From Akkermansiaceae bacterium (GTDB lineage: Bacteria > Verrucomicrobiota > Verrucomicrobiia > Verrucomicrobiales > Akkermansiaceae), in NCBI GenBank assembly GCA_025354565.1, contig JANXMQ010000220.1, forward strand, positions 1-64,000: a stretch of 64,000 nt of DNA. Reading direction: 5' to 3'. Each line of letters begins with the position of its first letter. Position 1 is the first letter of the stretch. Below the pieces are notes generated by a model. That model worked only from the letters and a program-made list of their open reading frames with translations. It was not told where the DNA came from and ran no database searches. This document shows, piece after piece, positions 350 through 32,687 of the stretch. A program made the position numbers and the translations under genes.

Positions 350-880
350 TCAGTGAATGATCTCATCCATGGCGATGTCATGGGATTCTGGAAAGGTGTT
401 GGGAACGATCTGGCAGGGGAAACAGATGCCGATTTTGAGGGCGTCTGGGCGGGCATTTGCTAGGGTTCGATCGTAGTAGCCCCGGCCCCGGCCAAGACGT
501 CCGCCGTCGTGATCAAAGGCAAGACCGGGGCAGAGGAATGCGTCGATTTCCGGCAGCGGGACGGTGGGTGAGCCGGGGGCGGGTTCGAAGATTTGGAAGG
601 GTCCGGGGATGAGATTTTCCCCCGTGTGGAAGGTGAGGTCGAGGCCGGTGATTTTAGGATAGACCCAGCGCCGATCTGGATGGCGGCGGATCATTTCCGA
701 TAGATCGACCTCGCCGGGGAGTGCTGCATAGACGGCGATGGTGCGGAGGTCGGGATGGGTTTGGAGCCAGGTGTCCATGGCGGCGCAGGCGGCATCCGAG
801 CTGGTGCTTAAAGTGGTCAAGGTCCGGCGCATGGTGGCGCGGAGTTGTGATTTTTCAGGAGTTGGATCGGGAATTGCCAC
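350..880 (-). CDS. ygfA: 5-formyltetrahydrofolate cyclo-ligase
   Basis: This 176-residue protein matches the 5,10-methenyl-THF synthetase family, which uses ATP to convert 5-formyl-THF to 5,10-methenyl-THF in the cytosol. The glycine-rich signature GRLGRGRGYYDR near residues 128-139 is the family's ATP/folate loop. The N-terminal KSQLRATMR helix, the YAALPGEVD stretch and the PGLAFD segment appear in the expected order. Length is slightly short for the family (about 180-200) but nothing appears missing. It is transcribed away from the next gene, whose reading frame begins just beyond its start, so the two probably share a divergent promoter region. Confidence 0.9.
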   Translation of the reverse strand: MAIPDPTPEKSQLRATMRRTLTTLSTSSDAACAAMDTWLQTHPDLRTIAVYAALPGEVDLSEMIRRHPDRRWVYPKITGLDLTFHTGENLIPGPFQIFEPAPGSPTVPLPEIDAFLCPGLAFDHDGGRLGRGRGYYDRTLANARPDALKIGICFPCQIVPNTFPESHDIAMDEIIH

Positions 881-916
881 TTGCCAAGAATCGGACTTCT
901 TCCATCCTTAGCCCCG

Positions 917-1480
917 ATGATGCGTTTTTGGCAAGCCACGGCGGTATTTTTAATGACGGTTTCTCTGCTGCGTGCGGAGGAGGGGGCGAAGTCATTCGCA
1001 TGGAACGCGCCTAAAGTAGCGGTCAGCGTGTTCACCCGGGATCTCGGGATGTTGGATTCCGAGCGTGAGGAATACGCCACGAATCTTGCGACGCTGGCAG
1101 CGAATCGGGTGGTAAGTAGCAAGGCGACAGCATCCGCGCTGGCGGACGCCCGCCGGATTTTGGCGCTGGCGCTCCAGCTTTCCCCGCGCAACAAGCGGGC
1201 TGTGGTGGTGAATTTCCAATTCACGAAGGGCCTGCTGCCCGAGGTCACGGATGGAGCCTACAGCCCACAGGTGTTCGCCCGGCTGATTTTGACTCGGGGG
1301 CAGCTTTTGACGAAACAAGGGGGCGAGGAAAACCAGAAATTGGCCCGTTATTTCATCCAACTCGCCGCCGAGTTGGATCCGAAAAACGATGACGCTGTCT
1401 ATGCCAGCGAGCTTCAACGACTGGATCACGGAGCACTCGACTGGACGCCGATCACGGACCCGGAGGCGAGTAAGCCCTGA
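917..1480 (+). CDS. Secreted protein of unknown function, TPR-like
   Basis: I do not recognise the family. The frame is open from a TTG at 881, but the ATG at 917 is preferred because the product then begins MMRFWQATAVFLMTVSLLRA, a good signal peptide. The mature part is helical, with ALADARRILALALQLSPRNKRA and a later YFIQLAAELDPKNDDAVYA segment, both resembling tetratricopeptide helices. It is therefore probably a small periplasmic scaffold protein. The next gene starts 15 bp after its stop and may be cotranscribed. Confidence 0.6.
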   Translation: MMRFWQATAVFLMTVSLLRAEEGAKSFAWNAPKVAVSVFTRDLGMLDSEREEYATNLATLAANRVVSSKATASALADARRILALALQLSPRNKRAVVVNFQFTKGLLPEVTDGAYSPQVFARLILTRGQLLTKQGGEENQKLARYFIQLAAELDPKNDDAVYASELQRLDHGALDWTPITDPEASKP

Positions 1481-1494
1481 GAGCTTGAAGGGAT

Positions 1495-1965
1495 ATGGCC
1501 GCGGAAATCGAACGTAAATTCCTCGTCGAGGATGATTCATGGATCGACGGTACCGCAGGTGTTAGAATGATTCAAGGTTACCTCTCCCACGACCCGGAGC
1601 GAACGGTAAGGGTACGGCTCGCGGGGGGAAACGCGTGGCTCACAATCAAGGGTCGCAGTGAGGGCATCACGCGGGCGGAGTTTGAATATGCAATTCCACC
1701 GGCGGACGCGCGGGAGATGTTAGAATGGTGCCTGCCCGGGGTGATCTACAAAACACGGCATCGAGTACCCTACGGCGGGCATGTCTGGGAGGTCGATGTT
1801 TTCCATGCTGAAAATGCGGGCTTGGTGGTTGCGGAGGTGGAACTGGAGGACGCTTCGATTTCTCCAGAGCTGCCGCCGTGGGTGGGGGCGGAGGTTTCGG
1901 CGGACCCTCGTTATTTCAACTCATGCCTGGCAATATATCCCTACGCGGAATGGGCGGATGAATAA
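1495..1965 (+). CDS. CYTH domain protein (triphosphate tunnel metalloenzyme)
   Basis: A 156-residue single-domain CYTH protein. The N-terminal EIERKFLV motif is the hallmark of the superfamily, and alternating charged beta strands follow (TVRVRL, WLTIKGR, RAEFEY, YKTRHRV, WEVDVF, VVAEVELE), supplying the acidic and basic residues that line the tunnel. Bacterial single-domain members usually hydrolyse inorganic triphosphate or related triphosphates. Class IV adenylate cyclase is a less likely alternative. The sequence does not decide the substrate. Confidence 0.85.
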   Translation: MAAEIERKFLVEDDSWIDGTAGVRMIQGYLSHDPERTVRVRLAGGNAWLTIKGRSEGITRAEFEYAIPPADAREMLEWCLPGVIYKTRHRVPYGGHVWEVDVFHAENAGLVVAEVELEDASISPELPPWVGAEVSADPRYFNSCLAIYPYAEWADE

Positions 1966-2102
1966 TGGGTAGGCAAGACTCGTGCGATGCTTCTCGCTTT
2001 CATTCCACATTTCCACAACGCCAACTGCGGTTTGATCAATCTTTCTCCAATCTCCCGCTTGCCACCGCCGTGCATCCATTTACCCTTGCTCAAGAATCTC
2101 AC

Positions 2103-2984
2103 ATGAAAATCTGGCTCGACGGTAAATTGGTGGACGAATCTGAGGCAAAGGTATCGGTCTTTGACCATGGCTTGCTCTACGGGGACGGGGTGTTTGAAGG
2201 CATTCGTTTTTACAACGGACGCATTTTCCGCTTGGAGGAACATATTCGGCGGCTGTTCGATTCCGCCAAAGCAATCCTGTTAAATCTGCCATGGACGCAG
2301 GCGGAAGTTTGCAAGTTCACCTGTGAAACGGTCGCGGCAAACGGTCTGACCGACGGCTACATTCGTCTGGTCATCACCCGTGGCGCGGGGGAACTCGGGC
2401 TGAACCCCTACCTCTGCCCGAAGCCGTCGATGTTCATCATCGCCTCGACGATCAAGCTCTATCCCGACGAGACCTATCAGAACGGCCTCGCAATCATCAC
2501 CTGCGCGACTCGCCGCCCGGCCCCCGGCGCGCTGATGCCGCAAGTGAAGTCGCTCAACTACCTGAACAACATCATGGCCAAGGTTGAGGCGATCCAAGCA
2601 AACGCGCTGGAAGCCGTGATGCTCAACGAGCAGGGCTACGTCGCGGAGTGTACGGGCGACAATTTGTTTCTCCTGAAAAATGGCACACTGCTCACGCCCT
2701 TCATCAGCGATGGCGCACTTGATGGCATCACTCGCGCGGTCATCCTCGAAATCGCGGAAAATCTCGGCGTGCCATTCAAGGAGTGCTCGTTGACACGGTA
2801 TGATATATTCACGTCGGACGAGTGTTTCCTCACCGGCACTGCGGCTGAGGTGATTCCCGTTGTCGCGCTTGACCGGCGCGTGATCGGCACCGGCAAGCCC
2901 GGTCCATTCACCGCCCGATTCCTCGAAGCATTCCACCAACTTACCATGAGCACTGGCACTCCCTTTGCTTTGGCAAGTGAATGA
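2103..2984 (+). CDS. ilvE: Branched-chain amino acid aminotransferase (class IV PLP)
   Basis: The product transfers amino groups between glutamate and branched-chain 2-oxo acids in the last step of Leu/Ile/Val synthesis. The frame is open from 1965, but the ATG at 2103 gives the standard fold-type IV start MKIWLDGKLVDESEAKVSVF and a normal length of 293 residues. Visible signatures are HGLLYGDGVFEGIRFYNGR near the N terminus, VKSLNYLNN containing the PLP lysine, EAVMLNEQGYVAECTGDNLF, and a C-terminal TGTAAEVIPV. leuC/leuD lie elsewhere in the window, so the pathway is scattered. D-amino acid aminotransferase is the main alternative, but the motif set fits IlvE better. Confidence 0.9.
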   Translation: MKIWLDGKLVDESEAKVSVFDHGLLYGDGVFEGIRFYNGRIFRLEEHIRRLFDSAKAILLNLPWTQAEVCKFTCETVAANGLTDGYIRLVITRGAGELGLNPYLCPKPSMFIIASTIKLYPDETYQNGLAIITCATRRPAPGALMPQVKSLNYLNNIMAKVEAIQANALEAVMLNEQGYVAECTGDNLFLLKNGTLLTPFISDGALDGITRAVILEIAENLGVPFKECSLTRYDIFTSDECFLTGTAAEVIPVVALDRRVIGTGKPGPFTARFLEAFHQLTMSTGTPFALASE

Positions 2985-2993
2985 GCCACGACC

Positions 2994-3503
2994 ATGAAAT
3001 GTGATTTCTGCGAGAAAAAAGCCACCGTTTTCCTGACCCAGCTCGTCGAGGGTCAGATGAAAAAGGTGTGCCTTTGCGACCCATGTGCGAAGGAGCGCGG
3101 AGTCACCGACCCCACGGGTTTCTCGCTGGCGGATCTCTTGTTAGGTGGGCTGCCCGGCGGTCCCGGAACGGTCACGGCCAACGCCTCGCCGGTCGCGGCA
3201 GGCAATGGTCGAAAATGCGCGACCTGTGGCTTTACGCTCGATGACCTGCGTCGTGTCCGCCGCTTCGGGTGCAGCGATTGTTATGCGACCTTCAGCGAGG
3301 AAGTCGGCCAGATGGTGCGCGGGATGCACAAGGGGACCTCGCATATCGGTAAAGTGCCGGAAGGCCTGATGGCACTCCAATTCCGCCACCAGCGCATCGA
3401 GGAACTTCGTTCGCGGCTCGATCAGGCGATCGCCTCAGAGAGCTACGAGGAAGCGGCCGGTATCCGTGATGAAATCCGCCACCTCGATGAAGTGAAACAT
3501 TGA
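2994..3503 (+). CDS. mcsA: McsA, zinc-finger activator of protein arginine kinase
   Basis: A 169-residue protein with two zinc-binding modules: CDFC...CLCDPC at the N terminus and CATC...CSDC around residues 77-100. A C-terminal UVR motif (LRSRLDQAIASESYEEAAGIRDEI) binds ClpC-type partners. In Bacillus, McsA activates McsB and takes part in metal and heat stress responses. All four CxxC pairs appear intact, which suggests an active adaptor. The next gene, mcsB, starts 28 bp downstream, and clpC follows it directly. Confidence 0.9.
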   Translation: MKCDFCEKKATVFLTQLVEGQMKKVCLCDPCAKERGVTDPTGFSLADLLLGGLPGGPGTVTANASPVAAGNGRKCATCGFTLDDLRRVRRFGCSDCYATFSEEVGQMVRGMHKGTSHIGKVPEGLMALQFRHQRIEELRSRLDQAIASESYEEAAGIRDEIRHLDEVKH

Positions 3504-3531
3504 AAATTTCCTCACCTAACAGTCCACCATC

Positions 3532-4659
3532 ATGATGCGCTTCTCCACCCTCATCAAGCACCCCGCCGATTGGATGACCGGCGGGCAAGGGGAGCATGGT
3601 GCCGTGCTCACCTCGCGCATCCGCCTTGCCCGGAATCTGAGCCGCCAACCATTTCCCGGCTGGGCCAAGCGTGACCAACGGGCTGCCGCCCTCGATCTGC
3701 TGCGGCCCGCGGTGGAATCCCTGCCCGCGATGAAAGGCGCGTTCTCCCATGAACTCGGCGATCTAACATCGGTGCAGAAACAAGTCCTCGTCGAGCGCCA
3801 CTTGATTTCGCGCGAGCACGCCGCCCGAGGTGATGGGTCGGCAGCCGTCATCGAGCGCCGCCAGACCTTCAGCCTGATGCTCAATGAGGAGGATCATTTG
3901 CGGATGCAGGCCATTCGTCCGGGACTCCAGCTAACAGCGGCTTTCAACGCCTTGGCCGAGCTGGACACGGAATTGGAAAGCTCGCTGGAATTCGCCTTCG
4001 ATCCCAAGCTCGGTTATCTCACCACCTGTCCGACCAATCTCGGCACCGGCCTGCGTGCCTCCGCCATGCTGCACCTGCCCGGCCTCGTCCTCAGCGACCA
4101 GATCGGCCAAGTCCTTCAAGCGGTCAACAAGATCGGTCTGGCCGTCCGCGGCCTCTACGGTGAAGGCACCGAGTCACTCGGAAATCTCTATCAAATTTCC
4201 AACCAGTCCACCCTCGGTGAGAGTGAGGAAACGATCATCCGTCGCCTGGAGCGGGTGATTTCCCAGGTTTCCAGTCACGAGCAGAACGCCCGCGAGAAGC
4301 TGCTGGAGGACGATCCGGAAATGGTTTCCGACAAAATCGGTCGCGCTTACGGGGTGTTGCGGCACGCCCACATCATCGACTCCAAGGAGGCGCTCAACCA
4401 CCTCTCGCTGCTGCGCCTCGGTGGCATGCTCGGTTTTTTTCCACCGGAAACCGTGATGGCGTGCGACACGCTGCTGATGGATATCCAGCCCGCCCACCTC
4501 CAGCTTCACTCCGGGCGTAAACTTTCACCCGAAGAACGCGATGCAATTCGTGCGGAAATCGTGCGCTCCCGTTTGCATTCTCTCGAATCCCCTGATAACC
4601 GTATCTCATCGAACGACGGAAAGACTTTTTCCGACCCCATCAACCCAGGCGACCCATGA
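3532..4659 (+). CDS. mcsB: McsB, protein arginine kinase
   Basis: This member of the ATP:guanido phosphotransferase family phosphorylates arginines on proteins and so marks them for ClpCP. Recognisable elements are LTSRIRLARNLSRQPFP near residue 26, the NEEDHLRMQ segment, TTCPTNLGTGLRASAMLHLP with the active-site cysteine region, and the C-terminal LNHLSLLRLGGMLGFF that matches the phosphoarginine-binding RLG region. Length (375) is slightly above that of the Bacillus enzyme. Its stop overlaps the start of clpC in ATGA, implying translational coupling. No ctsR repressor gene is adjacent, unlike the Firmicutes operon. Confidence 0.92.
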   Translation: MMRFSTLIKHPADWMTGGQGEHGAVLTSRIRLARNLSRQPFPGWAKRDQRAAALDLLRPAVESLPAMKGAFSHELGDLTSVQKQVLVERHLISREHAARGDGSAAVIERRQTFSLMLNEEDHLRMQAIRPGLQLTAAFNALAELDTELESSLEFAFDPKLGYLTTCPTNLGTGLRASAMLHLPGLVLSDQIGQVLQAVNKIGLAVRGLYGEGTESLGNLYQISNQSTLGESEETIIRRLERVISQVSSHEQNAREKLLEDDPEMVSDKIGRAYGVLRHAHIIDSKEALNHLSLLRLGGMLGFFPPETVMACDTLLMDIQPAHLQLHSGRKLSPEERDAIRAEIVRSRLHSLESPDNRISSNDGKTFSDPINPGDP

Positions 4660-28119: not shown

Positions 28120-29013
28120 TTAAGCGAAGCGGCCCATGCGGCTGCCCATGCGGGCGTAGAGCTCGATTTGATTGGCGGAACTCTCCAGCAAATCCGCATC
28201 CAGCCGGATGGTTCCCGCCTCGAAAAGTGTGATAGTCGAAGAACCTCCGAAGCCGAAGAACCCTTTTTCCTCACCCTTCGCGACGGGTTGATCAGGCGTG
28301 TAAGTTTGCTGAATCGTGCCCACACAGGTCGCGCCGATTTCCATGCAAATCACCGTGCCGAAGCGTTCGGTTTTCAGCTTCATCACCGTGCGTTTGTTCG
28401 TCCAGAGATACGCCAGCCGCTGGCGCAGGGCGATGGGATTCACAGAAAAAAGCGGCTCCCCGATCAAGCGCGTCTCGCCCGCAATCCCCGCCACAGGGAA
28501 ATGAAAACGATGGTAATCCACCGGGCAGAGCCGCGAAAGCACCAAGGCGCCATCCCTATAATCCTCAGCAAGTTTGGCATCACCCAGTAGCGCAGTCAGG
28601 TCGAATTTCTGCCCCTTCACGAACACGCCCTCGATTTCCGCAGCATCCTGAAATCCCAAATGCCGCCCATCCGCCGGGAAAACGACGTTGGCTTCATCCG
28701 CATCGATTGGCCGCGCCTCCGACTTCAGCTTGCGGAAGAAAAACTCGTTGAAACTCCGGTAAGACCCCGGCGCGTCCGCGAACTCCGCCGGGTCCAGCCC
28801 ATACTCCGCGATGAATGGCGCCACCCGCGCGGCAGACTGCGGCGTGTTCATCCGCCGACCATACCATTTCGAGAAAATCGGGCGTTTCACGAAGGCATTT
28901 AGCGCGATCTTCCCTAATGGATTTCCATACGCCCAACGCAGAAAGCCCTCCCCGTAAACCTGTTCGGTCTCAAGGGTTCCCGTGTGGCGGTTGAAATAGC
29001 GGATTGGTTCCAC
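28120..29013 (-). CDS. psd: Phosphatidylserine decarboxylase proenzyme
   Basis: The 297-residue enzyme makes phosphatidylethanolamine at the membrane. Recognisable regions are YRSFNEFFFRKLKSEARPID, VVFPADGRHLGF, LCPVDYHRFHFPVAG and the autoprocessing site FGFGGSSTITLFE, where GGSS replaces the LGST of the Escherichia coli enzyme, as in the group including Clostridium. Self-cleavage before the serine would give a short alpha chain with a pyruvoyl group. It is cotranscribed with glnD. Confidence 0.93.
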   Translation of the reverse strand: MEPIRYFNRHTGTLETEQVYGEGFLRWAYGNPLGKIALNAFVKRPIFSKWYGRRMNTPQSAARVAPFIAEYGLDPAEFADAPGSYRSFNEFFFRKLKSEARPIDADEANVVFPADGRHLGFQDAAEIEGVFVKGQKFDLTALLGDAKLAEDYRDGALVLSRLCPVDYHRFHFPVAGIAGETRLIGEPLFSVNPIALRQRLAYLWTNKRTVMKLKTERFGTVICMEIGATCVGTIQQTYTPDQPVAKGEEKGFFGFGGSSTITLFEAGTIRLDADLLESSANQIELYARMGSRMGRFA

Positions 29014-29126
29014 AGCCGGCTTGTAGTGGCGGTTCGCCTACCGCGCAAGCGTGACGGCAGATCGCTTGCGCCGCATCCGCCGTCTTCGTTCTTTCCTTCA
29101 GTCATCGCGAAGCATAGATTCAAGGC

Positions 29127-29402
29127 ATGACCACCCTCTCGGATCATCTGTTTTGGGATGTGGACCGCTCCGGGATTGATCCTGAGCGTCACGCGGCATG
29201 GCTGGCGAAGCGGGTGCTGGAATATGGCCGGTGGCGGAATTGGCAGATTCTCGTCGCTCACTATGGCAAGCTGCGGCTTGCCGAACTGGCAACCGGATTG
29301 CGAAGTCTGCACCCCCGGGCCTTGGCATTTTGCAGCGCATGGTTTCAACTCCCACTCTCGGCTTTCCGATGCTCCACTTCGCCGCAATTCCAAACTCCGT
29401 AA
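29127..29402 (+). CDS. DUF6922-type protein, AbiEii-linked
   Basis: The 91-residue product reads TLSDHLFWDVDRSGIDPERH, then WLAKRVLEYGRWRNWQILVA and HYGKLRLAELATGLRSLHPR. This matches small proteins (DUF6922 as I recall) usually encoded immediately before an AbiEii-type nucleotidyltransferase. Such pairs are thought to be toxin-antitoxin or phage-defence modules. Here the partner frame (29369) is truncated. The antitoxin-like member looks intact, ending AFRCSTSPQFQTP. Confidence 0.65.
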   Translation: MTTLSDHLFWDVDRSGIDPERHAAWLAKRVLEYGRWRNWQILVAHYGKLRLAELATGLRSLHPRALAFCSAWFQLPLSAFRCSTSPQFQTP

Positions 29403-29617
29403 ATGCTTTACTCGGCGGTTTGGCCTCGCACGATGGATTGGCGGCTTTTGCGCTGGGTGGTGACGTGGAAAAGGAGGCCGCTGGACGTGGCTATAGAGTA
29501 AACTGGCGGAAAATGGGCTCCTCCGAGCCGTCCGGGGACACCGCTGAACTGTCCGGGGACGCGGCTAGAAATGTGTTTGGAGCGGCTTTCGTTCATGGGA
29601 GCGACGCATTTGGCTGA
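29369..29617 (+). pseudogene. Truncated AbiEii-like nucleotidyltransferase
   Basis: The frame starts at ATG 29369, overlapping the preceding gene by 34 bp as in intact pairs. The first 31 residues (MLHFAAIPNSVNALLGGLAS...LAAFALGG) follow the AbiEii opening MLH..., ...LL..L..., L..F.L.GG. The match stops at GG, where intact proteins read GGTALALQ, and the rest is unrelated low-complexity sequence with a repeated TCCGGGGAC. The catalytic part is lost at about 29461. This is based on motif memory and should be checked. Confidence 0.5.
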
Positions 29618-29630
29618 CTCGGCATAGTGC

Positions 29631-30158
29631 TCATGGCTGAAAGGAAACCGGCGGGGAAATGGCAGTCGAATACCGCTCGGCATATCCGGCCAAGAAATCC
29701 CAGCCGGGCGTGGTGCGATACTCCCAAGTAAGCTTCTCAGCGGGATATGTCTGGGTAATGGGCTGAATGATGGCGGCAACATCGGCGTCGGGAGCGACGC
29801 AGAAGTAGTAATGACGAAAGCCGCCAAATGTCTCGACGAGAATGGGCACGCCGCGAGGTGGTGAGTCGAACGCCGAAGTAATCGCAACGTCGAAATCTTC
29901 GAGCGTCTTGTTGTATTCGGGCTCGGGGCGGCCGTCAGGGTAGCGGTGGGTGAACTCGTGCGACACCACAGCAAGACGCGAGTAACGCTTGCGGTTGGTG
30001 GGCGTGTCCACGTTGGTTGGTCGCCGAAGATAGAGCGGAAAGGTCTCATACGTGTGGCCCGACCCAACCCAGTGGCGCTATGGACGAGAAAAACGCCAGA
30101 CGAGGAAGGCAACGAGTGCGATGACGGCGACGATACAGGCAATCTTCAAAGCGATCAT
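29631..30158 (-). pseudogene. Cassette gene for membrane-anchored DUF695-like protein with in-frame stop
   Basis: Translated from ATG 30158, the product begins MIALKIACIVAVIALVAFLV (a membrane anchor), reaches WRFSRP, meets TAG at 30078-30080, and then continues in the same frame with RHWVGSGHTYETFPLYLRR and a globular domain to 29631. The globular part (FGGFRHYYFCVAPDADVAAI, then LTWEYRTTPGWDFLAGY) resembles DUF695. Restart at a GTG (30011) could still give a 126-residue soluble piece. The start lies 22 bp after an attC-like site, as for a cassette gene. A sequencing error could also explain the stop. Confidence 0.6.
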
Positions 30159-30179
30159 TGGCGGACGGCGTTCTCATGC

Positions 30180-30272
30180 GCCTAACGACTCAAGCTCAGC
30201 GACCCGGCCCACGGGACGCCACGATTGCAACCGGGACGTAATGGCCGGGTTCGCTGCAGAGCATGGTTAGGC
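30180..30272 (-). other. attC-like recombination site 1
   Basis: Read on the minus strand, the site opens GCCTAACCATGCTCTGCAGCG and closes CGCTGAGCTTGAGTCGTTAGGC. The outer boxes fit the attC consensus RYYYAAC...GTTRRRY, and the inner arms are imperfectly complementary, as attC hairpins require. It lies between the stop of the DUF4190 gene (30280) and the start of the next gene (30158), the normal position in a cassette array. The core for recombination would be GTTAGGC at 30186-30180. Confidence 0.75.
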
Positions 30273-30279
30273 CACGGTC

Positions 30280-30564
30280 TCACTGCTGAATCCAATTCTG
30301 TCCATGAGCGCCTTGGTAAGCACCGATAGCAGAGTTGATGATGGTCAAAACTAGGCCGATGATACTCAAAGTAAGCCCGGCAACCGCCGTCCCTCGGCTC
30401 GTAGATTTCATGCCCTTCAGCGACATTACCAGTCCGACAATCGTGACGGGAAAGCCGAATAGCGGGAGAAACCAAGCGAGCATCCCGATGATGCCCAAAA
30501 CAAGTCCTGCCGTGGCTTTGCCTGTGGGGTTTTCTGTTGGAGTTGGTGAGGTGTTATTGTCCAT
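30280..30564 (-). CDS. DUF4190 small membrane protein (cassette gene)
   Basis: A 94-residue protein with a short Pro/Thr-rich N terminus and two membrane helices: ATAGLVLGIIGMLAWFLPLF...VTIVGLVMS and TAVAGLTLSIIGLVLTIINS. The repeated A.AGL.L.IIG pattern is typical of DUF4190. No enzymatic residues are evident. It starts 40 bp after an attC-like core (GTTAGAC at 30610-30604) and stops 8 bp before attC-like site 1, so it is a self-contained cassette of about 424 bp. Confidence 0.8.
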   Translation of the reverse strand: MDNNTSPTPTENPTGKATAGLVLGIIGMLAWFLPLFGFPVTIVGLVMSLKGMKSTSRGTAVAGLTLSIIGLVLTIINSAIGAYQGAHGQNWIQQ

Positions 30565-30603
30565 ATAGTTTGTAGTGTGTTGTGTTTGCTAAATAATCGA
30601 GCG

Positions 30604-30781
30604 GTCTAACATGTTATTCGATGACGAGTCGTGATGTTTTACGACTCGTCGCATAGCAAACTGGTTTTTGCCGATTCATAGGTGTAAACTGCGTGACTCA
30701 GCGTTTCCCGGCAAGGATCAATTTGCCGGGGAGTAACGATTACGAGCGGTGATTTCGGGCGACGCGTGCGGGTCTAGTGGC
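30604..30781 (-). repeat. Long repeat copy A, containing attC-like site 3
   Basis: A 176-bp block (30606-30781) matches 32075-32250 with six mismatches and no gaps. At its cassette-facing edge, 30604-30670 looks like an attC: GTTAGAC core on the minus strand, imperfect arms, and a perfect 10-bp stem GACGAGTCGT/ACGACTCGTC with an 8-base loop. The opposite box (GTTTTTG on plus, 30664) is degenerate. Further on, CCCGGCAA/TTGCCGGG forms a second perfect hairpin. The extra 110 bp would be the 3' end of the cassette carrying this attC. Confidence 0.8.
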
Positions 30782-31020
30782 TGTTTCCTCGGTGCCATAC
30801 TCCCAGCACGGAGGCATTGGGCGGGTCTTGGATTTGCACGTTCGCAGTGGTCCGATTTTTTCGGCGGACGGACCTCGCTATTTGATTTCTCCAATCGGCC
30901 TCGCGATTTGGCCTCTTTATTGAGGTGCACACGACTGCCGTAACTGTCCCGATTTTCGCCTCGCCCTTTTAACTGATTTCTTCACCGAAAAGTCGCTTTG
31001 AGGTGAGTATCATGCTGACC

Positions 31021-31446
31021 CTATTCGATCTTCAAATTTGAAAAATCTAGGCCCGACCCCGTCCATCCGCGTAGCGACGTTGGAGTTGAGCTGCCAGTCG
31101 GAACAACGCTCCTTGGAATGAGGATGAGAAGGCCCCACAAGAGGCTAGCGAGGCCAAGCCAAGCCGAAGCTACCGTTGCAGCGATGAGCGACTCTCGCCG
31201 GAGACTGAAATATGCTAGGACAACGTAGATGAGCAGACCCAAGCCGCAGACTACAGCAAAAAAAATCGCAATATAACGTCCGTGTATCGTGTCGTGAGAC
31301 ATAGCCACTAAGTCCCGCGTTGCCTGATATGGTAAGAGCACAAGCATATGTGTGCCTGTCGGAGTAACAAGTGAGCGGAGATAGCTGAGCAGGAAGATCA
31401 ACGCGGGAATCAACAAAATAGCGACAATGGCGAGTTTCTTTTTCAC
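31021..31446 (-). CDS. Polytopic membrane protein (cassette gene)
   Basis: A GTG start at 31446 gives 141 residues beginning VKKKLAIVAILLIPALIFLL, with about four membrane helices, including IAIFFAVVCGLGLLIYVVLA and TVASAWLGLASLLWGLLILI. The family is not recognised. The start lies 27 bp after the core of attC-like site 2 and overlaps the stop of the preceding frame in GTGA. About 240 bp without a gene follow its stop before repeat copy A. Confidence 0.65.
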   Translation of the reverse strand: MKKKLAIVAILLIPALIFLLSYLRSLVTPTGTHMLVLLPYQATRDLVAMSHDTIHGRYIAIFFAVVCGLGLLIYVVLAYFSLRRESLIAATVASAWLGLASLLWGLLILIPRSVVPTGSSTPTSLRGWTGSGLDFSNLKIE

Positions 31447-31838
31447 GATTTCAGAGAAGCGCTCGGCGAGTCGCCTAACGACCCCAAGCTCAGCGACGGC
31501 AGAGTGCGGCGCGGCATGGTGGGCGGCAAGGCGTCGGCGGAAGCAGGTGCCGTGACGCACGGAGCAGTTCGCTGCAGCGCATGGTTAGCGAAGGATTCAA
31601 TTCTGTTTTGCTCAGGTTTAGTTGACTGAAGCTTTGCGGCTCTGATGACGGTTGCGACGAACGCGCAAATACAAACTGCGGGAGCAACCTGCAAATACGT
31701 CCATTCGATTCCGGATCCCTGGAAGCCAGCCCCGCCGGGTTGGGATTGCAGTGTCCGCACAAACAACGTGTGCATAGTAATCGTCGTGAAGTATGCCGTT
31801 ACGAAAACGTAGAAATATGAGGATAGAAACTTCTTCAT
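31443..31838 (-). CDS. Small membrane protein whose frame reads through an attC site
   Basis: The 131-residue frame begins MKKFLSSYFYVFVTAYFTTI and has a second hydrophobic stretch (VAPAVCICAFVATVIRAA). From about residue 83 it runs through attC-like site 2, which gives the tail NHALQRTAPCVTAPASADAL. It ends with TGA at 31445-31443, overlapping the GTG start of the next cassette gene. NHALQRT-type tails are a known sign of attC translated as protein. The native domain is therefore probably only the first 80-85 residues. Confidence 0.6.
   Translation of the reverse strand: MKKFLSSYFYVFVTAYFTTITMHTLFVRTLQSQPGGAGFQGSGIEWTYLQVAPAVCICAFVATVIRAAKLQSTKPEQNRIESFANHALQRTAPCVTAPASADALPPTMPRRTLPSLSLGSLGDSPSASLKS
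31473..31590 (-). other. attC-like recombination site 2
   Basis: On the minus strand it opens CGCTAACCATGCGCTGCAGCG and closes CGCTGAGCTTGGGGTCGTTAGG. Both arms closely match site 1, so the two sites are homologous. The opening box CGCTAAC departs from RYYYAAC at its first two bases, while the GTTAGGC core is perfect. The site is longer (118 bp) than site 1 (93 bp), with the variable centre differing, as expected of attC sites. Confidence 0.72.
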
Positions 31839-31878
31839 GGGTGTAGTTGATGGCGCTTTGTTGGTGCGTGGAAGGTGC

Positions 31879-32052
31879 TTATCTGAATGTAAGCAACGAC
31901 ATTATTGCTGCGGCCAACACGAGCGCGCCGACGGCTGCGATAAGAAATTGACGTCGCTGCAATGCGGTAGCTGTTTGATAGCGACGAACCGTGAAAGCAA
32001 TTGCGAACAGCGAGAGGACAACGAAAAATATAATGAGGGATAAGTCTTTCAT
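31879..32052 (-). CDS. 57-residue two-helix membrane protein (cassette gene)
   Basis: The frame from ATG 32052 to TAA 31879 encodes MKDLSLIIFFVVLSLFAIAF, then TVRRYQTATALQRRQ, then FLIAAVGALVLAAAIMSLLT-FR. That gives two membrane helices joined by a basic loop. It begins 20 bp after an attC-like core (GTTAGGC at 32079-32073), the usual cassette spacing. No homologue is recognised. It shares a cassette with the 131-residue frame that follows. Confidence 0.55.
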   Translation of the reverse strand: MKDLSLIIFFVVLSLFAIAFTVRRYQTATALQRRQFLIAAVGALVLAAAIMSLLTFR

Positions 32053-32072
32053 TGCAGATGATGCGCGGAGTC

Positions 32073-32250
32073 GCCTAACATGTTATTCGATGACGAGTCG
32101 TGATGTTTTACGACTCGTCGCAAAGCAAACTGGTTTTGGTCGATTCATAGGTGGAAACTGCGTGACTCAGCGTTTCCCGGCAAGGATAAATTTGCCGGGG
32201 AGTAACGATTACGAGCGGTGATATCGGGCGACGCGTGCGGGTCTAGTGGC
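32073..32250 (-). repeat. Long repeat copy B, containing attC-like site 4
   Basis: Positions 32075-32250 match copy A (30606-30781) at 170 of 176 positions by eye. The same 10-bp and 8-bp perfect hairpins are present. The core facing the cassettes is GTTAGGC (32079-32073, minus). The opposite degenerate box is GTTTTGG at 32133. The cassette that should lie upstream on the minus strand has no recognisable gene in 32251-32687. Confidence 0.8.
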
Positions 32251-32687
32251 GGAGGCTCGAGGCGGGGCGGTGAACATCGAAGGGAAGAGGCCGGGATGCA
32301 CCTGTCCGTTATGACAGTTTCCCTATGACAGTTTCCCAGACAAAAGGTAGTCCCCCCATATCCTAAGAGGATCGCAGTGCCTAAATCATAAGCGGGGGTC
32401 TGAAGTGAATGGGGTCAGCTTACAGGGTCAATCCTGTAACGAGATGGCGAGTCGCCCCGCGCTCCATTCGAGGGGGCGTTAGAGTGTTTGGGGGATGTGC
32501 TTGCCGGTGAGCGGGATGGTGCGGCATCGGAGGTCGTGAGCTGCCGGACTTGCGCCCGTAGCGGTGAATTCCGCCGTCGGCAAGATCAGCGAGGGTTGAA
32601 GTTTTTGCCGGGCTGCTTGCCATACGGTTACTTGGAATTTCCCGTTTCCACTTGCGCCGTGCTGGACGCGGGCTTATCGCCGCGCAC
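32251..32687. other. Gene-free region with tandem repeat and hairpin
   Basis: No convincing gene. ATGACAGTTTCCC occurs twice in tandem at 32311-32323 and 32325-32337. A stretch from GTAACG (32434) to CGTTAG (32482) is an imperfect inverted repeat of about 50 bp ending in GTTAGAG and might be a decayed attC-like site. GGGGTCAGCTTACAGG near 32410 resembles debris seen beside small REP-type repeats. The region marks the end of the cassette array. Confidence 0.4.

Follow-up and report, generated by a model that had tools for sequence, protein, structure and literature searches.

A probable remnant of a chromosomal integron with two attI copies and no integrase gene in Akkermansiaceae bacterium

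Clusters of attC sites devoid of an integrase gene are known as CALINs, a category defined together with IntegronFinder 2.0 (PMC9024848). Outside class 1 integrons, the attI sites are poorly described (PMC9024848), and the IntegronFinder pipeline detects attI only for this class. In the chromosomal integrons of Treponema, the integrase gene, intI, is transcribed toward attI (PMC3607928). Cassettes terminated by a stretch of attI, called delta-attI cassettes, occur in class 1 and class 2 integrons, and one of them bears 244 nt of attI2 (PMC12901181). Integrons carried by phages are also known (PMC9892861), and a CALIN with its own attI was described in the Shewanella prophage M16-3 (PMC9892861).

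The DNA analyzed here, referred to as the window, is a stretch of 64,000 nucleotides of contig C208 from a fragmented draft genome of Akkermansiaceae bacterium (5.1 Mb, 257 contigs, about 95% complete). In the initial annotation of this sequence, the block at 29631-32250 was proposed to be an integrase-less array of gene cassettes with four inverted-repeat attC sites on the minus strand. Our analysis confirmed this proposal in part: the cassette array is real, but its four sites fall into two classes, with two attC and two attI. The order of elements on the minus strand is attI-A, cassette 1 with its attC, cassette 2 with attI-B, cassette 3 with its attC, and cassette 4. As had been noticed, the minus-strand genes begin about 20-40 bp past a GTTAGGC or GTTAGAC core, with start codons at 32052 (ATG, core at 32073), 31446 (GTG, core at 31473), 30564 (ATG, core at 30605) and 30158 (ATG, core at 30180). 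The Rfam scan of the window at the gathering threshold and the blastn search against plasmids gave zero matches each.

Recognition of the attC sites was based on a covariance model of our own (R1), built from eleven aligned sites of other contigs and of G034, a same-genus Akkermansiaceae MAG used for comparison, with the sites of the window excluded. In the window, the model matched 31473-31592 (minus strand, 115.2 bits, E = 3.7e-32), which closes cassette 1, and 30180-30275 (minus strand, 53.7 bits, E = 1e-13), which closes cassette 3; these were the only matches below E = 1, and a third one, with E = 4.3, was rejected as noise. Two of the four attC sites proposed initially, 30180-30272 and 31473-31590, were therefore recovered far beyond chance by a model trained without them, and the other two, 30604-30670 and 32073-32139, left unmatched, are best read as the ends of attI. 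The assertion that the first two sites, numbered by increasing coordinate, share both arms did not hold, as it is the first and third, and the second and fourth, that share sequence.

The alignment of the eleven attC sites displays pairing of R'' with R' and of L'' with L' and leaves two bases of the L'' arm unpaired; 91% of its cells assigned to pairs were paired, versus 20-40% when the alignment was slid. Covariation was slight, and the shuffle control was weak because most pairs scarcely vary; the main grounds for the pairing are thus complementarity and the slid control, covariation adding less. A genome-wide search for the L'R' arm of attC, GTCGCTGAGCTTGnnGTCGTTAGGC, with at most 3 mismatches gave 14 occurrences, versus 0 of the reversed control. 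When the sites of the window were folded, the R and L arms of the one at 30180 formed on both strands. For the site at 31473, the L arm, interrupted by bulges, is formed by the bottom strand but not by the top one; this fold was no better than those of shuffled sequences, and its R''/R' pairing varied with the stretch folded. Genome-wide, model R1 gave 20 matches at E of at most 0.1, 19 of them solid (E < 5e-4) and distributed over nine contigs. On C69, C24, C217, C224 and C122, attC-bearing cassettes occur without an attI module on the same contig, several of these arrays being close to the end of their contig.

A direct repeat of about 176 nt, present in two copies of 97% identity, both on the minus strand, has its 3' ends at the sites 30604-30670 and 32073-32139. 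Copy A (32073-32250), at the start of the array, includes a conserved core of 54 nt (32128-32075) and an R box GTTAGGC at 32079-32073, and copy B (30605-30781), inside the array, ends with an R box GTTAGAC at 30611-30605. In the alignment of the copies, the R box GTTAGGC is accompanied by a palindromic core, TAACATGTTA, and by two related boxes of the CGACGA-TCGT type located upstream, an arrangement which recalls the L, R, DR1 and DR2 boxes of attI1. The sigma-70 scan near attI recognized no promoter, so no Pc promoter is claimed.

The identity of these modules was judged from the position of their counterparts relative to intI. On contig C284 of G034, an intact IntI gene (400.9 bits, cut-off 265) is followed after about 235 nt by the 54-nt core and then by two attC, with intI, the core and the attC all on the same strand. 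A module copy of 97% identity occurs after the intI 3' end on another contig of G034 (C268). In the genome studied, on C53, the module is placed between an intI 3' relic, 96% identical to the IntI of G034 over 53 amino acids, and two attC cassettes. In all three cases the module or its core adjoins intI, precedes the first cassette and ends with GTTRRRY, and the core of attI-B is common to the intI-adjacent copies. The homology between the copies runs on, in a weaker form, into the intI-attI spacer. Upstream of attI-A it covers 32251-32309 (minus strand), which resembles the intI-attI spacer of C53, as found by blastn against C53, C100 and C268 of G034; no intI sequence is left in this stretch. 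Two tandem copies of TATGACAGTTTCCC are found just upstream of the attI-A module, at 32310-32337, where the homology to other intI-attI spacers ends, and they may represent an end of an insertion sequence.

Because an intact intI precedes the core in G034, the second and fourth sites of the window are best read as attI, on the basis of their position and conservation. If, instead, all four sites were attC of two subfamilies, the locus would be a plain CALIN with four attC, and the GTTAGRC end with a gene next to it at each of the four sites, as well as a 10-bp hairpin in the second and fourth, would fit such a view. Nevertheless, these two sites have no R'' box and no paired L''/L' arms, give no match to the attC model, and have counterparts in C53 and G034 that are flanked by intI on one side and the first cassette on the other, which makes four attC sites extremely improbable.

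Copies of the module were found on C208 (the two of the window), C53, C100, C126, C111 and C161, and a diverged one on C11; C72 bears a mere 31-nt match. The copies on C100 and C126 have exactly 141 nt in common, are situated at contig ends and probably represent one locus; counted as such, they bring the number of attI loci in the genome to about seven. Among open-licence papers, we found none that reports a genome with attI at about seven loci. The left ends of the copies vary: an intI relic lies directly upstream in C53, cassette 2 upstream of attI-B, and other chromosomal sequence upstream in C111, C161, C100 and attI-A; on C11, too, there is an intI relic, although some 5 kb separate it from the attI copy. 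A shared signature of these left ends was sought by eye and rejected, since C161 and C100 start near GTT and the others do not. Such a multiplicity with unlike left ends, and the perfect 10-bp inverted repeat in the module, could be expected of an unrelated dispersed repeat, REP-like, MITE-like or a promoter repeat, that happens to adjoin cassettes. We regard this as very unlikely, because the right end is a GTT crossover box every time, with a gene next to it wherever the contig continues, and because a second species keeps the module at its intI 3' flanks, with homology in the upstream intI flank as well. Moreover, whenever attC are present on the contig of an attI copy (attI-A, attI-B, C53, C111 and C161), they lie downstream on the same strand, in five cases of five. 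The double-attI structure was also considered as a misassembly; collapse of k-mers is unlikely, as exact matches between the attI copies of the window and any other copy in the genome do not exceed 58 nt.

The cargo of the array consists of small, mostly hydrophobic proteins of unknown kind. Cassette 1 comprises two minus-strand genes, one for a hydrophobic protein of 57 amino acids (31879-32052), starting 20 bp past the attI R box, and the other for a hydrophobic protein of 131 amino acids (31443-31838), whose ORF reads on through the attC; neither gave a family above the cut-off in family searches. The product of cassette 2 (31021-31446, minus strand, 26 bp past R') is a hydrophobic protein of 141 amino acids. 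The small membrane protein of cassette 3 (30280-30564, minus strand, 94 amino acids) had been assigned to DUF4190, an assignment that falls below the Pfam cut-off (23.6 versus 35 bits), but the companion assignment of a DUF695-like domain to cassette 4 exceeded it (PF05117, 28.4 versus 23.1 bits). The gene of cassette 4 (29631-30158, minus strand) encodes a membrane segment and this domain in one frame, split between the two by an in-frame TAG at 30080-30078, and the attC model found no attC after the gene in the window. A 14-nt fragment at 29331-29344 (minus strand, repeat family D2), identical to the L''-side arm of attC, AACCATGCGCTGCA, is a possible attC relic. A DUF6922 gene (29127-29402, plus strand; 58 bits versus a cut-off of 27) lies at the array end, within the inserted stretch. 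The family searches are consistent with the earlier remark that resistance genes are lacking, as none was recognized, and PADLOC gave zero matches to defence genes in the array.

Cassette 2 differs from its neighbors in the way it ends. Its R' is at 31473, its gene spans 31446-31021, attI-B follows at 30781-30605, and there are 0 matches to the attC model in between. Thus, an ORF is followed by a stretch of attI which replaces attC, and the whole is bounded by core sites, as in delta-attI cassettes. A different origin of attI-B, compatible with the array being an integron remnant, would be a fusion or deletion which joined two arrays and deprived cassette 2 of its attC. Copy B is a full module starting, at 30781, inside the intI-attI spacer, about 240 nt of non-coding DNA precede it, and other attI copies are ragged at the left too, all of which would agree with a fusion. 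On the other hand, cassettes are known whose delta-attI ends are long, reaching 244 nt of attI2 (PMC12901181); structure alone therefore cannot separate the two origins, and we give them about even chances.

The whole insertion spans approximately 29041-32637, between the gene of phosphatidylserine decarboxylase (PSD; 28120-29013, minus strand) on the left and a lipoprotein/resB/ccsA operon (from about 32688, plus strand) on the right. In four relatives (G039, G042, G061 and G009), these two are neighbors, separated by gaps of roughly 100-215 bp; in eight others, PSD was missing from the stretch examined, and these do not enter the count of empty sites. Two cassette genes were searched for in 145 relatives, and neither was found in any of them (0/145 for the cassette 2 gene and 0/145 for the cassette 3 protein); the cassette 2 gene occurs nowhere else among the 146 genomes that include the window's own. 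Hence, with the locus empty in four relatives and two cassette proteins in 0/145, a block conserved in fixed gene order, which would argue against mobile cassettes, is not what the relatives present. The empty sites and the patchy gene content support the earlier suggestion that the cassettes are mobile.

As to the integrase, the absence of a tyrosine recombinase, reported initially for the window, was borne out on the whole contig by a profile search with PF00589, which gave 0 matches on C208. No intI sequence was found upstream of either attI-A or attI-B, so the locus is not a complete integron. The label of CALIN given to it earlier is formally correct, since there are two attC by our covariance model (the definition asks for at least two) and no intI nearby, although an integron without intI which keeps its attI is a better description. 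The proposed search for intI elsewhere in the genome was fruitful to the extent that it disclosed relics on C53, C211 and C11 and one intact, divergent IntI on C166 (TIGR02249, 308 bits), which is 37% identical to the IntI of G034; no intact cognate intI was found in this draft assembly, which is about 95% complete. On its 3.8-kb contig, the intact IntI lies upstream, on the same strand, of an ORF of 586 amino acids that resembles a terminase, though with a weak family match (E = 8e-4); the two occupy 752-3596. It is possibly a phage-borne integron integrase; no relatives of it were confirmed in IMG/VR. An integron integrase above the curated cut-off was present in 72 of the 146 genomes searched, the window's own counted, indicating that integrons are common in this order.

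The locus presents two types of sites in a defined order and orientation, has lost intI and is inserted relative to its relatives; we are confident that it is what remains of a chromosomal reverse-type integron of Akkermansiaceae bacterium, with intI lost, attI kept and a second attI inside. In the intact state, an IntI tyrosine recombinase would have been transcribed toward attI, and circular cassettes would have been inserted at the R box of the attI of about 54 nt (G^TTAGGC) by its recombination with the folded bottom strand of attC. In the present state, with intI gone, attI-A marks the array start, cassette 1 (with its two small membrane genes) and cassette 3 close with normal attC, cassette 2 closes with the second attI copy as a delta-attI-type end, and cassette 4 has decayed and lost its attC. 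The sites were presumably recombined by an IntI of the type found on C284 of G034, and attI-B may have been placed either through a rearrangement driven by integrase or through the joining of two arrays. The array would now move only if an IntI acted on it in trans. A more speculative idea, which we hold to be rather unlikely, is that attI itself spreads, attI-ended cassettes inserted by a trans-acting IntI seeding new docking platforms at various places in the chromosome; several arrays and about seven attI, with few or no linked integrase genes, would be its outcome.

The mechanism is that of the known integron; unusual here are how many attI copies lie apart from intI and that one of them sits inside the array. 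Like a CALIN, the window has two attC, no intI on the contig, and small cassette genes on one strand; unlike it, the array keeps its own attI, with a second one inside. Both the integron of G034 and the relic on C53 run in the direction intI, attI, cassettes, like the Treponema integrons, which belong to another phylum; attI in the present case occurs in multiple copies and is for the most part separated from intI. In cassette 2, as in the attC-ORF-delta-attI cassettes, a stretch of attI replaces attC, but those cassettes come from resistance integrons with attI1 or attI2, whereas here the array is chromosomal, the attI is unrelated, and about 176 nt of it are retained. In the CALIN of Shewanella M16-3, too, an array without integrase begins with an attI of its own; two attI are present there, versus about seven in the genome studied, including one within an array. 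Comparison of copies lying beside intact, decayed and lost intI allowed an attI of an Akkermansiaceae lineage to be defined, and the case shows that integrase-less arrays can retain docking sites, even one inside the array.
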